NCBI GenBank assembly: GCA_040388375.1
Contig: JAZKBU010000002.1
Location: forward strand, 124,001 to 188,000
DNA from: Bacteroidota bacterium
Lineage (GTDB): Bacteria > Bacteroidota > Bacteroidia > UKL13-3
Length of the DNA stretch: 64,000 bases
Direction: 5' to 3'
Shown: positions 16,907 to 44,153 of the stretch, one piece after another
Layout of the letters: every line of letters starts with the position of its first letter
Position numbering within the stretch: the stretch's first letter is position 1
Position numbers and translations under genes: made by a program
The notes under the pieces: model-generated
Told to the model about the DNA's origin: nothing
Seen by the model: the letters and a program-made list of their open reading frames with translations, nothing else
The model's database searches: none

Positions 16907-17698
16907 ATGTCAAATAACCACGAAATTGATTACCGCATTTTTGGAAGCGAAATGCAATGTGTAGAAATAGAACTTGATCCAAACGAAACTGTAATGGCAG
17001 AGCCGGGCAGTTTTATGATGATGAATGATGGTATACAAATGCAAACCCTTTTTGGCGATGGCAGCCAGCAAAACGCAGGTATACTCGGTAAGTTATTTAG
17101 TGCGGGCAAACGCTTGCTTACTGGCGAAAGTTTATTTATGACTGCTTATACCAATATAGGTCACGGAAAAAAACAAGTAACCTTTGCTGCGCCATATCCG
17201 GGTAAAATTATTGCACTTGATTTATTGCGTTTGGGTAATAGAGTAATTTGCCAAAAAGATTCGTTTTTATGTGCAGCCAAAGGCGTAGCAGTTGGTATTG
17301 AGTTTCAACGTAAGTTAGGTACCGGCTTATTTGGTGGCGAAGGTTTTATTATGCAAAAACTGGAAGGCGATGGTTTGTGTTTTGTACATGCTGGTGGTCA
17401 CGTAGAAGAGCGCGAATTGCAACCGGGCGAAATGCTTAAGATAGATACAGGTTGTATAGTAGCTTTTACAAAAGATATTGAGTACGATATTCAATTTGTT
17501 GGCGGTATTAAAAATACTTTATTTGGTGGCGAAGGAGTGTTTTTTGCAACCTTACGCGGACCCGGAAAAGTTTGGATACAAACATTACCTATTAGCCGTT
17601 TAGCTGGACGTATATTACAATACGGAACACGTGGCGGTAAAGAGCAAGGAAGTATTTTAGGCGGACTTGGTAATATTTTGGATGGTGATGGTTTTTAA
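16907..17698 (+). CDS. AIM24 / TIGR00266 family protein
   Basis: 263 residues matching the AIM24-like (TIGR00266) family, a conserved beta-rich fold found in bacteria and mitochondria. Visible hallmarks are the early VMAEPGSFMMMNDGIQM near residue 29, the glycine-rich centre GTGLFGGEGFIMQKLEGDG near residue 145, and GGIKNTLFGGEGVFFATLRG near residue 195. There is no signal peptide. The biochemical role of bacterial members is not established; the yeast protein affects mitochondrial inner-membrane organisation. It is a single gene with its own terminator, divergent from the TIP30-like gene. Confidence 0.93.
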   Translation: MSNNHEIDYRIFGSEMQCVEIELDPNETVMAEPGSFMMMNDGIQMQTLFGDGSQQNAGILGKLFSAGKRLLTGESLFMTAYTNIGHGKKQVTFAAPYPGKIIALDLLRLGNRVICQKDSFLCAAKGVAVGIEFQRKLGTGLFGGEGFIMQKLEGDGLCFVHAGGHVEERELQPGEMLKIDTGCIVAFTKDIEYDIQFVGGIKNTLFGGEGVFFATLRGPGKVWIQTLPISRLAGRILQYGTRGGKEQGSILGGLGNILDGDGF

Positions 17699-17787: not shown

Positions 17788-18594
17788 TTATTTAAAAGGG
17801 CTATCTTTTTCTTTTGCAATGGTGTTATAAACCAATTTATCTAATATGCGTGGTACAAATTTTTGTAATAAGTAACTCAATTTACCTTGCATAGTTAAAA
17901 CCTGATGAGCCCTTCTATGGGTAATCATTTTGAGTATGTAATCGGCTACTGTTTCAGCAGGCATTAGTTTCTTTTCATCAAAAGGACTTTCGGCCTGACT
18001 TCTGGCATCTTTGTTTAAAGCAGCATTGCGTATGTTAGAAGCTGTATAACCCGGACATATAACACCTACGTGTAAACCTTTTTTTAAGTTTTCAATGCGT
18101 AGTGATTCTAAAAAACCTTCCATTGCAAATTTACTGGCACTGTAACCCGTACGGCCCGGCAATCCTTTAAAGCCTGCTACTGAGCTAACTCCTATTACAC
18201 TGCCTTTTTCTTTTAACAAATAAGGCATGGCATATTTGGTACAATATACTGTTCCCCAAAAATTGGTATCCATTACTTGCTTTATTACCGTTAAATCTAA
18301 CTCCGCAAATAAAGCACGCATGCTTATACCAGCGTTGTTAATTAAAACATGTATGGTATGGTACTCATGAATGGTATGTGCTATTAAATCTCTACAATCA
18401 TTCTCATCACTTACATCGCATTTCACCAATAAACAAGAAGCACCTAATACTTCACAATTGTTTTTTACATGTGTCAGTTTATCAGTATTACGCGCAGCCA
18501 ATACCAACTTTGCTCCTTGTTTGGCAAAAGCATAAGCACAAGCCTCGCCAATGCCTGATGATGCTCCGGTAATGATGATTACTTTATTTTTCAA
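17788..18594 (-). CDS. Short-chain dehydrogenase/reductase (classical SDR)
   Basis: A 268-residue SDR with all classical motifs: the cofactor loop TGASSGIGEA (residues 9-18), LINNAGISM near residue 86, the catalytic Ser in GVSSVAG and Tyr/Lys in GYSASKFAMEG near residue 153. ARNTDKL after the second strand points to NADP preference. The extended C-terminus (LLQKFVPRILDKLVYNTIAK) is amphipathic and may associate with membranes. The substrate is not evident. It is 72 bp downstream of the thioredoxin-fold gene on the same strand, and converges on the AIM24-like gene. Confidence 0.92.
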   Translation of the reverse strand: MKNKVIIITGASSGIGEACAYAFAKQGAKLVLAARNTDKLTHVKNNCEVLGASCLLVKCDVSDENDCRDLIAHTIHEYHTIHVLINNAGISMRALFAELDLTVIKQVMDTNFWGTVYCTKYAMPYLLKEKGSVIGVSSVAGFKGLPGRTGYSASKFAMEGFLESLRIENLKKGLHVGVICPGYTASNIRNAALNKDARSQAESPFDEKKLMPAETVADYILKMITHRRAHQVLTMQGKLSYLLQKFVPRILDKLVYNTIAKEKDSPFK

Positions 18595-18666: not shown

Positions 18667-19203
18667 CTATTTCCAAACAATAGGAGTTCCCACTGCCGGC
18701 ACTTCCGGAAAATCAGGTTCAATACCATCTAAAGCTTCTTCTATTGCATCTTCTAAATAGGCTTGGGTTACCATGTGTTCATTTTCCCAACTATCGTCAA
18801 TAGCACCTTTATATACTAACTCACGTTTCCCATTAAATAAAAATACTTCAGGATTGGTTTGTGCGCCAAATTTTTTAGCTACTTCTTGTGTTTCATCTTT
18901 CAAATACAAAAAGTTCAATTTATCCAGACCAAATTTATAAGCCGCCTTGGTCATGTGTTCTAAACTATCTTCTGGTGATTTAACTACATCGTTGCTGTTA
19001 ATACCAACTATACCTAAATTATCGTCTTCATATCGTTCAAACAAATCAATAATACGTTTGCTATATGATTGTGATATAGCTGAGCTATCGCAGGTAAAAA
19101 CAACGACTAAAGCATATTTATCAGCATACTCAAAACTTGAGTGCATTTTATTGTCAAAACCTATTAGGTTAAATTCAGGTAACTTATCTCCTATTTGTAA
19201 CAT
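18667..19203 (-). CDS. Thioredoxin-fold AhpC/TSA-like protein with degenerate active site
   Basis: A 178-residue cytosolic protein of the thioredoxin-like redoxin family. Family landmarks are kept: IGDKLPEFNL at the start, VVVFTC (residues 33-38), GINSNDVVKSPEDSLEHM, YLKDETQEVAKKFGA, VYKGAIDDSW and a C-terminal IVWK. Proteins of this family usually carry CNHCP at the active site plus further cysteines before the cis-proline and near the end. Here the active site reads CDSSA, the pre-proline region reads GAQTNPEVF, and the end reads VGTPIVWK. Cys38 is therefore the only cysteine in the whole protein. It may be a one-cysteine peroxidase-like enzyme or a non-redox relative. It lies upstream of the SDR gene on the same strand. 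Confidence 0.87.
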   Translation of the reverse strand: MLQIGDKLPEFNLIGFDNKMHSSFEYADKYALVVVFTCDSSAISQSYSKRIIDLFERYEDDNLGIVGINSNDVVKSPEDSLEHMTKAAYKFGLDKLNFLYLKDETQEVAKKFGAQTNPEVFLFNGKRELVYKGAIDDSWENEHMVTQAYLEDAIEEALDGIEPDFPEVPAVGTPIVWK

Positions 19204-40283: not shown

Positions 40284-40619
40284 ATGAACTGGAATCAATT
40301 AACGCAAGTAGCGGAACTAAATACAATTAACGAAGAATCGAATTCGCAAAAAATATTAGTGTTTAAACACAGTACACGCTGTAATATCAGTTCGAGTGCT
40401 TTAAACAGGTTGGAACGCAATTGGAACGATACAACTGACAGTGAAAAATTAAAACCTTATTACTTAGATTTAATTGCTCACCGCGATATATCGGCTGAAA
40501 TTGCCAGTAAATGGAATATTGAACATGAATCGCCACAGGTATTGGTTATTGAAAATGGTAAATGTATTTACAACAACTCTCATTTGGGTATTGACTACGA
40601 AGAGCTAATGGCTCTTTAA
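40284..40619 (+). CDS. ytxJ: Bacilliredoxin YtxJ-like protein (DUF2847)
   Basis: 111 residues with a thioredoxin fold. The single active cysteine is Cys33 in KHSTRCNISSSALNR, the monothiol pattern of YtxJ/bacilliredoxin proteins, and ESPQVLVIENG supplies the cis-proline strand. YtxJ-type proteins remove bacillithiol from mixed disulfides, so the organism may make bacillithiol, as several Bacteroidota do. It lies directly after a terminator and converges with the antiporter gene 7 bp away. Confidence 0.9.
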   Translation: MNWNQLTQVAELNTINEESNSQKILVFKHSTRCNISSSALNRLERNWNDTTDSEKLKPYYLDLIAHRDISAEIASKWNIEHESPQVLVIENGKCIYNNSHLGIDYEELMAL

Positions 40620-42507: not shown

Positions 42508-44007
42508 TTAATTAGTTAATTTATCTTTCTCCATGTTGTCAATAAACTCTTTTATTTGGTCAGCAGGAATGCGCTTGGCTACAATCTTTTTATTCTTATC
42601 AATAATATAAATTACCGGTGTGCTAAACACATCGTATAACACTCTGAAATTGGTTTCATTTAATGGATCGTACAAATGTAGTTTCCATGGTAATTTTTGC
42701 TCGTTTAAGTATTTTTTCCACTCAGTAGGATCTTCGGTTAAGCTCACTGAAAATACATCAAACTTTAATTTGGCTTTTGGAGCAATTCCGTTGTTTAGCT
42801 CTTTGTATGCTTTCACTATTTTAGGCATTTCTTCTTTACAATGTCCGCAGGTGGCATTCCAGAAAAACACCAATGTATAATCAGCATCCATGTTGTATAA
42901 GCTATGGTATTTACCGCTTGTATCCTGCATGCTCAAGTTTCTGGCTTTTACCCCTAACAGGTTATTGCGTAATTTATCACATTTGTCTTTCATACGCCAA
43001 ATCAATAAACTATCAACCCAATAAGCTTTGCCTTTTGCATAGTAATTATCAATTAAATGTACAAAAACAGCATCCATACCCATAAACTGCGAAGCTTCGT
43101 AATGATTGGTTGTCCAGAACAAACAAAACTTAAAGTTTTCGCTTCCTTTTTCTGCTAACTTTAATACCTGATCAGCAGCTTTTATAATGCTATCAGGAAT
43201 TTGCGGAGTCACTTTTAAAATAAAGGTTTCAAACTTTGGAAAGAAAATAGGTGTACGTGAAATTCTATTGTCGCTAAAATCAAAATTATCGAAGTAATGG
43301 TTTTTATAATACTCGTACTGAAAGTTTGAATCTATAATTTGGCCTTTGCTATCTTTTGGTGCATCGGGTACATCTACTTCTTTCATCATGCTGAATATTT
43401 TACTGATAAGCATATTGGGGTTTTCGGTAGCTATTCTTTTACGTTCCTCATTTAGCTGGGTCATCATTTGTTTGTACTGAGCTAATAATTTATCTTCTTC
43501 TTCTTTATTCTTTTGCTCTTTGGCTTCTTTAATTTTGGGTTCCAACTGGCTGGCTTCTCTTCCCATTTTCGAAGCAAATTTGGTATACGCAAAAAACACT
43601 TCATTTTCCGGTGTATTGGTGGTTTTCATGTTGTCAATTAATGACGAACTATCTGTTTCTAACGTGAACTTTTGTTCGGTTACCACAAAATCAAATAACA
43701 ATGCTTTATCGGCAGTAGCTATTAAATAAACACCGCCTTCTAATACATCGGTTCCTTTAAAAACCATTTTACCTTTGGTGTCAGTAACAGCACTATCACG
43801 CAGGTATTGTTTATCGCCAAAATAGTATCCTAAGTAAAATAATTTATTGGCATAGCCTTTAATAGTTATATTCAGTTCATGCCCCGGCTTATCGTTTTTC
43901 GACTTATTATTTTCAGTATTTGCTTTTTGAGGAGCTTTTTTTTGAGCCACACTTAACAGTGTAACCACACTAAAAAAAACGGATAATGATATTTTTAAAA
44001 TACGCAT
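42508..44007 (-). CDS. TlpA-like thiol:disulfide oxidoreductase with DUF4369/DUF5106-type N-terminus
   Basis: 499 residues from ATG 44007, which gives a proper signal peptide (MRILKISLSVFFSVVTLLSV); an in-frame extension to 44094 would put a leader of 29 unusual residues in front and is rejected. Residues ~40-140 form a beta-domain (INITIKGYANKLFYLGYYFG type, DUF4369). A helical region with KEQKNKEEEDKLLAQYKQMM follows. The C-terminal thioredoxin domain has Cys-Gly-His-Cys in FFWNATCGHCKEEMPK near residue 386 and the cis-proline in FSTPVIYIID. It probably works in the periplasm in disulfide reduction or cytochrome c maturation, as in other Bacteroidota TlpA proteins. Confidence 0.92.
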   Translation of the reverse strand: MRILKISLSVFFSVVTLLSVAQKKAPQKANTENNKSKNDKPGHELNITIKGYANKLFYLGYYFGDKQYLRDSAVTDTKGKMVFKGTDVLEGGVYLIATADKALLFDFVVTEQKFTLETDSSSLIDNMKTTNTPENEVFFAYTKFASKMGREASQLEPKIKEAKEQKNKEEEDKLLAQYKQMMTQLNEERKRIATENPNMLISKIFSMMKEVDVPDAPKDSKGQIIDSNFQYEYYKNHYFDNFDFSDNRISRTPIFFPKFETFILKVTPQIPDSIIKAADQVLKLAEKGSENFKFCLFWTTNHYEASQFMGMDAVFVHLIDNYYAKGKAYWVDSLLIWRMKDKCDKLRNNLLGVKARNLSMQDTSGKYHSLYNMDADYTLVFFWNATCGHCKEEMPKIVKAYKELNNGIAPKAKLKFDVFSVSLTEDPTEWKKYLNEQKLPWKLHLYDPLNETNFRVLYDVFSTPVIYIIDKNKKIVAKRIPADQIKEFIDNMEKDKLTN

Positions 44008-44153
44008 AAATGTTGATTTATTTTGGGGTGAAATTAAGAAAAAACTATACCACAAAACATCAAATTTTAACTTTAATAATTTTTTAAGTAGCACAAACCC
44101 ATAAAAATCACTTTTTCAAGTATCAACAATTACCAAACAATCTATTTTTTGGC

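Follow-up and report, generated by a model that had tools for sequence, protein, structure and literature searches.

The window analysed here, a 64,000-nucleotide stretch of DNA from a Bacteroidota bacterium, carries at 18667..19203 (minus strand) a Cys-poor redoxin of the CNHC family, whose 178 residues include a single cysteine. This raises the question of whether such a protein still works as a peroxidase or another thiol enzyme, is decaying, or has a function apart from thiol chemistry.

A CNHC-type redoxin with one cysteine left

The ORF runs from 19203 to 18667 and comprises 178 codons plus the stop, with the sole cysteine (residue 38) lying within VVVFTCDSSAISQSY. The first-pass annotation had read the usual CNHCP active site as CDSSA, with Cys38 alone, and the later family cysteines as replaced; both readings were confirmed. 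According to the sequence and the orthologue tables, the former active site (residues 38-42) maps to 19078..19092 (minus strand), with codon TGC at position 38. Position 41 (19081-19083, minus strand), located by the orthologue alignment, is a TCA codon for Ser, and the protein reads CDSS where a CXXC active site would be expected. The C-terminal tail is GTPIVWK where the family has GC[ST]IKW, and alignment with relatives identified Thr173 (18685..18687, minus strand) as the replacement of the C-terminal family cysteine. The AACTPD cysteine of the solved relatives 2ywi and 3u5r, absent from 2cvb, corresponds to Thr116.

The alignment also revealed that GAIDD (residues 133-137; 18793..18807, minus strand) and the invariant Trp139 that follows were kept while the cysteines were lost. 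Pro118 (18850..18852, minus strand), which we take to be the cis-Pro of the thioredoxin fold, was invariant in the 61-sequence alignment. The protein matched the Pfam models PF00578 (AhpC-TSA) at 7.6e-13 and PF08534 (Redoxin) at 1.1e-9.

Fold and solved relatives

With two broken-off sequences among the 63 family orthologues omitted, the remaining 61 served to compute an AlphaFold2 model of the protein, which had a mean pLDDT of 94.6. The best Foldseek matches were 2ywo (a Thermus CNHC protein) and 2cvb, with a TM score of 0.92, and related structures scored 0.91-0.92, in agreement with the good preservation of the fold stated earlier. When the PDB sequences were searched with a profile (E 1e-6), the only matches were the three closest sequences, 2cvb (Thermus), 2ywi (Geobacillus) and 3u5r (Sinorhizobium). 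The first two read CNHC and carry the C-terminal GC[ST]IKW, and 3u5r reads SNRC and GCNIKW, being devoid of Cys38 with the other two cysteines kept.

The window protein thus has a thioredoxin fold closest to 2cvb, 2ywo, 2ywi and 3u5r, with which it shares the fold (TM 0.91-0.92), the length, the GxxDD and Pro118 regions and the C-terminal G-x-x-I-x-W tail. It differs from all four by the lack of Cys41 and Cys173, and from 2cvb also at the positions of His40, Thr117 and Lys176. We take the 2cvb-type CNHC family to be PRX_like1 of CDD. According to one report (PMC3514251), cyanobacterial PRX_like1 proteins carry an AACTPDF cysteine motif, which is missing from the window lineage. Our literature search found no assigned function for CNHC-type redoxins, and among the titles and abstract beginnings screened we recognised no report of cysteine loss in this family.

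A single-copy gene kept across the family

One orthologue was found in 63 of the 64 genomes of the family, which is the sole family of its order in the genome collection. The orthologues covered 14 of 14 genera, were 55-100% identical and had no internal stops. The only genome of the 64 where no orthologue was found is G083, which is 99% complete. A search of the genome that contains the window detected no second copy at E values up to 1, the only other match being a peroxiredoxin (E 0.012). The first-pass annotation had named a decayed paralogue, with close orthologues keeping CNHCP, as the outcome that would overturn its reading; since this is the only copy in the genome and the close orthologues are Cys-poor too, that objection falls.

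A wider scan of GTDB retained 80 of 192 relatives. Bacteroidota metagenome assemblies accounted for 77 of these (five titled as pond). The remaining three came from two species of Solitalea and from Bacteroidetes bacterium UKL13-3, whose complete chromosome (CP012155.1) encodes an orthologue of the CNSS form. The wider sample comprised 101 rows; as L223 clustered in the tree with CNHCP paralogues, 100 were counted as orthologues. Orthology to the CNHC-bearing proteins was supported by the trees and by shared neighbours: a downstream SDR gene and a divergent upstream gene (cluster 2) were also found at two CNHC members (L165 and L166).

Cysteines are lost in a graded series

The orthologues displayed a motif series going from CNHC through CN[ST]C and CNSS/CDSS to SNSS/SDTS. 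Among the 63 family orthologues, position 38 was Cys in 53 and Ser in 10, and position 41 was Cys in 12, Ser in 49 and Gly in 2. Position 173 was Cys in 12, Thr in 43, Ser in 5 and Ile in 1, with two sequences having no alignable residue. Exactly one cysteine was present in 27 of the 63, and the CDSS form occurred in all 10 genomes of the window's genus; these two observations exclude a sequencing error. Genera g13 and g14 keep CNHC (with one CNSC member), g5 and g4 have CNSC and CNTC, and most other genera have CNSS. Ser38 was found in g2 (7 of 8 genomes), g6 (1 of 1) and g3 (2 of 19).

When the 100 orthologues were considered, 42 had all three cysteines, 40 only Cys38, 10 none of the three, 5 only Cys41 and Cys173, and one, the very divergent G136, only Cys41; two more had Cys38 with an unalignable tail. 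The whole protein was Cys-free in two of the 100 (G014 and G023), the G014 orthologue being 79% identical to the window protein. The orthologues of two cultured species, Solitalea agri and S. longa (L190 and L192), read NNSC, with Cys38 replaced by Asn and both Cys41 and Cys173 kept. Another row, L221 (genome G188), contains one in-frame TAG and its frame stops after GCQL, near the C terminus; its position 38 is Ser.

We have also considered Cys138 (IDDCW), which occurs in several genera, as a replacement partner of Cys38. This candidate was rejected, as position 138 changed eight times in the tree and the residue is absent from the window's genus.

Timing of the losses

In a 103-row tree built without the trait columns, all Cys41-less rows except G020 were separated from the rest by a single branch (51 rows, support 95), and the same branch had a support of 94 in a 114-row tree. 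One of the 51 rows, G139, comes from a different family within the class. As to whether the Cys-poor form is a fixed clade, these 51 rows form one, with G020 (genus g12) placed apart from them in the tree. The tree favours a separate loss of Cys41 and Cys173 in G020, with a single clade of all Cys41-less rows not being rejected (p-AU 0.07).

Position 41 changed twice on both trees, position 173 three times on the 114-row and twice on the 103-row tree, and position 38 ten and nine times, respectively. These parsimony counts are blind to loss versus gain, the direction of loss being deduced from an outgroup in which all three cysteines are present. Grouping the ten Ser38 rows in a single clade was rejected (p-AU 0.0002).

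Selection and conserved residues

Within genera, dN/dS ranged from 0.01 to 0.15 among the pairs listed (dS between 0.02 and 3), these ratios being approximate, as many dS values were large and near saturation. In g2, where Ser38 is found in 7 of 8 genomes, dN/dS was 0.02-0.09. The values of the window's genus (0.03-0.15) were higher than those of five pairs keeping all three cysteines (0.020-0.026).

Along the 51-row Cys-poor clade, position 38 changed about 5 times, and 110 of the 178 positions changed less often. Fifty of the 178 positions never changed, including Phe36, Thr37, Tyr47, Arg50, Pro118, Glu119, Asp136, Asp137, Trp139 and Gly172. We have then compared the 52 rows without Cys41 with the 47 that have both Cys41 and Cys173. 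Besides the two cysteines, the most strongly differing positions included 40 (His replaced by Ser in the Cys41-less rows), 117 (Thr by Asn), 174 (Ser by Pro) and 176 (Lys by Ile or Val), together with others off the motifs (e.g., 16, 48 and 156). As judged from these alignments, the old active-site region would have been refitted rather than abandoned.

These data bear on the idea of slow decay, by which the protein would be a useless redoxin on its way to loss. The failure to find an orthologue in the nearly complete G083 and the raised dN/dS in the window's genus would fit such a course, but retention in 63 genomes and 14 genera with intact frames, dN/dS values that do not exceed 0.15 among the pairs listed, 50 invariant positions across 51 rows and a high-confidence predicted fold all speak against it, and we find slow decay barely credible. 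The purifying selection acting on Cys-poor and Cys-free orthologues alike supported instead the alternative, already raised in the first-pass annotation, of a function apart from thiol chemistry.

Cys41 and Cys173 behave as a pair

Among the 98 orthologues that could be scored, 47 had both Cys41 and Cys173, 50 had neither and a single one was discordant. All 35 more distant homologues fetched (L037-L071, part of the weaker matches) had both residues, together with Cys38. At the sequence level, Cys38 is loosely held within the orthologous lineage, and Cys41 and Cys173 act as a unit; the two residues may touch in the structure. An independent-pairs test of their co-loss yielded only 2 pairs and had no statistical power.

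This pattern could mean that the protein was never chiefly devoted to thiol redox, with Cys41-Cys173 being an accessory disulfide, stabilising or regulatory, that some cells can dispense with. Besides the near-perfect co-occurrence and the presence of the pair in all the distant homologues, this explanation draws on the cases where Cys38 was lost while Cys41 and Cys173 stayed (L190, L192, L168, L170, L221 and PDB 3u5r). Still, the same 35 distant homologues keep Cys38 too, and the co-loss amounts to one or two events, given the p-AU of 0.07 for a single clade. We regard this account as decidedly improbable.

A related proposal concerns the natural series going, with purifying selection steady throughout, from three-cysteine through CNSC and CNSS to Cys-free forms. 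It may show that the core function is not thiol redox and that Cys41-Cys173, rather than Cys38-Cys41, are linked, serving as a redox switch or staple that a binding protein can do without. We put this forward tentatively, as a possibility that falls short of probable.

A peroxidase role is disfavoured

Counting the window protein, the AhpC-TSA model matched 10 loci of the genome, and three of these (L231, L232 and L233) are ordinary peroxiredoxins by their familiar motifs. The peroxidatic motif of peroxiredoxins is PxxxTxxC. It was found in these three other proteins of the genome, whereas the sole cysteine of the window protein, in VVVFTCDSSAIS, is not accompanied by Pro or Thr at the distances that the motif demands. 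The protein shares the Pfam AhpC-TSA match with the BCP/AhpC peroxiredoxins and lacks their site.

The peroxidatic cysteine presumably corresponds to the second CXXC position, which is Ser41 in the window protein. We have compared the three-cysteine and Cys-poor profiles with the three peroxiredoxins of the genome using hhalign. The six comparisons disagreed: one placed the peroxidatic cysteine on Cys41 (probability 35%) and one, that of the Cys-poor profile with the genome's AhpC, on Cys38 (14%), the rest placing it on neither. In all 12 cases from four MAFFT alignments that included the ResA-like protein of the genome, the peroxidatic cysteine fell on the second CXXC cysteine of that protein. 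That column lies three past Cys41, the first ResA cysteine being set on Cys41 owing to a shorter loop. In none of the four alignments did the peroxidatic cysteine of any of the three peroxiredoxins fall on Cys38.

The first-pass annotation had suggested a one-cysteine peroxidase using another thiol; in such an enzyme, Cys38 would reduce the peroxide and the resulting sulfenate would be resolved by the second thiol. The matches to the AhpC/TSA and Redoxin models, the one remaining cysteine and the single profile alignment on Cys38 are compatible with it. The four multiple alignments and the profile alignment on Cys41 oppose it, as do the three ordinary peroxiredoxins of the genome and the repeated replacement of Cys38 (Ser in 10 of 63 family orthologues, these ten not forming one clade). 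It is mainly because Cys38 was replaced so often that we hold a peroxidase of this kind to be very unlikely.

Cys38 as a possible monothiol and the bacillithiol link

The main rival is a CxxS monothiol oxidoreductase, which is possible where Cys38 persists. Cys38 would attack mixed disulfides (e.g., protein-bacillithiol) and be regenerated by a free thiol, the Ser38 lineages having lost this activity secondarily. Monothiol bacilliredoxins and CxxS glutaredoxins provide the analogy. Among the 52 Cys41-less orthologues, 42 keep Cys38 and the other 10 have only Ser, which favours a monothiol and also counts against a protein that has dispensed with redox; a thiol or hydroxyl role at position 38 is possible. 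Moreover, Cys38 is the first cysteine of the CXXC, and the CnoX paper describes this residue as absolutely indispensable to oxidoreductase activity (PMC6282202).

The window also encodes YtxJ, a bacillithiol-system protein (40284-40619, plus strand), assigned by its match to TIGR04019 and by its sequence. Its CNIS site has the same CxxS layout as the CDSS of the redoxin, but YtxJ belongs to another family model, and the redoxin cysteine was replaced repeatedly. BshC was found in 59 of the 62 family genomes searched, making bacillithiol in the cell plausible. The suggested link to this cofactor gained from BshC and YtxJ as far as its presence is concerned; it was not sustained for Cys38 itself, as none of the ten Ser38 genomes lacks BshC, which therefore does not track Cys38. 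For the same reason, a loss of bacillithiol does not explain the loss of Cys38. The layout is CxxS, yet its first position is not invariant. Within the Cys-poor clade, this position changed roughly five times, more often than 110 of the 178 positions, which further weakens the case. Overall, we consider a monothiol oxidoreductase unlikely.

A proposed binding protein that has dispensed with redox

The reading towards which we lean, with somewhat more confidence than doubt, is that of a CNHC-type thioredoxin-fold protein that has dispensed with redox and binds a partner protein or small ligand through conserved residues of the old active site. As the tree and the alignments support, Cys41 and the C-terminal cysteine were lost together in an ancestor of most of this Bacteroidota family, and Cys38 was later exchanged for Ser on several occasions, with strong purifying selection acting on the remainder of this single-copy gene. 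The protein would work without thiol chemistry, by binding its partner or ligand. Thr37, Tyr47, Arg50, Pro118-Glu119, GAIDD-x-Trp and Gly172 would provide the binding residues and, as far as the predicted fold indicates, may form one face, with Cys38 being a tolerated small side chain rather than a catalyst. The same conserved residues could equally constitute an active site for non-thiol chemistry.

The putative binding role is modelled on other thioredoxin-fold proteins, which act as subunits or holdases. E. coli CnoX (YbbN) has an SXXC thioredoxin domain, no oxidoreductase activity and a holdase function (PMC6282202). It resembles the redoxin in being a thioredoxin-fold protein that has lost an active-site cysteine, but it has a TPR domain and uses its second cysteine, whereas two of the redoxin orthologues are Cys-free. 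No fusion to TPR repeats was seen in the window protein, which is a single domain of 178 residues matched by 2ywo along its length. In a study on plant TRX z, a subunit of the plastid RNA polymerase, the redox-inactive C106S form restored function and plastid transcription (PMC4036507). TRX z is likewise a thioredoxin-fold subunit whose redox-inactive form still works; it differs in keeping its cysteines and in its family and partner.

Thioredoxin-fold proteins that outlive their redox site are already known from CnoX and TRX z, and the CNHC-type series adds a variant. An orthologous series that sheds its cysteines with much else frozen is a natural mutagenesis experiment, which tells the residues needed for the core function apart from the thiols, singles out Cys41-Cys173 as a testable pair and makes the function of the CNHC-type family testable. 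It also cautions against equating an AhpC/TSA or redoxin annotation with antioxidant activity.

Neighbourhood and other genes of the window

The next gene downstream on the same strand, after a 72-base gap, encodes an SDR-family oxidoreductase (17788..18594, minus strand; NF004825 above cut-off). Of the 80 loci, 13 were set aside, as ORF calling gave no redoxin ORF at the start position expected, and 67 could be anchored. In 42 of these, the SDR gene came immediately after the redoxin gene in the same orientation, with gaps of -13 to 214 bases for first-start ORFs. This arrangement was seen in 33 of 45 loci without Cys41 and in 9 of 22 with Cys41. Among the 18 genomes searched, six of the eight g2 members carried the SDR gene at another place and a further one, G082, yielded none, and no SDR copy above 40% identity was detected in G065, G067, G013, G022 or G020. 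Where the SDR gene was placed did not cleanly follow the state of position 38. As a frequent downstream neighbour, the SDR is a candidate binding partner; deducing the function of the redoxin from its neighbourhood was discarded, as the SDR gene had moved or was not found in several genomes.

A cluster 4 gene, which we take to encode arginyl-tRNA synthetase, was often near the redoxin gene. The upstream gene encodes a DPP IV-type peptidase in the window's genus and is elsewhere often a divergent gene (cluster 2). A second redoxin-fold protein is encoded in the window at 42508-44094 (minus strand), with a weak C-terminal ResA/TlpA-like match below the cut-offs of the models. The window also contains, at 16907-17698 (plus strand), a gene for an AIM24-family protein (PF01987, E 4.5e-74).
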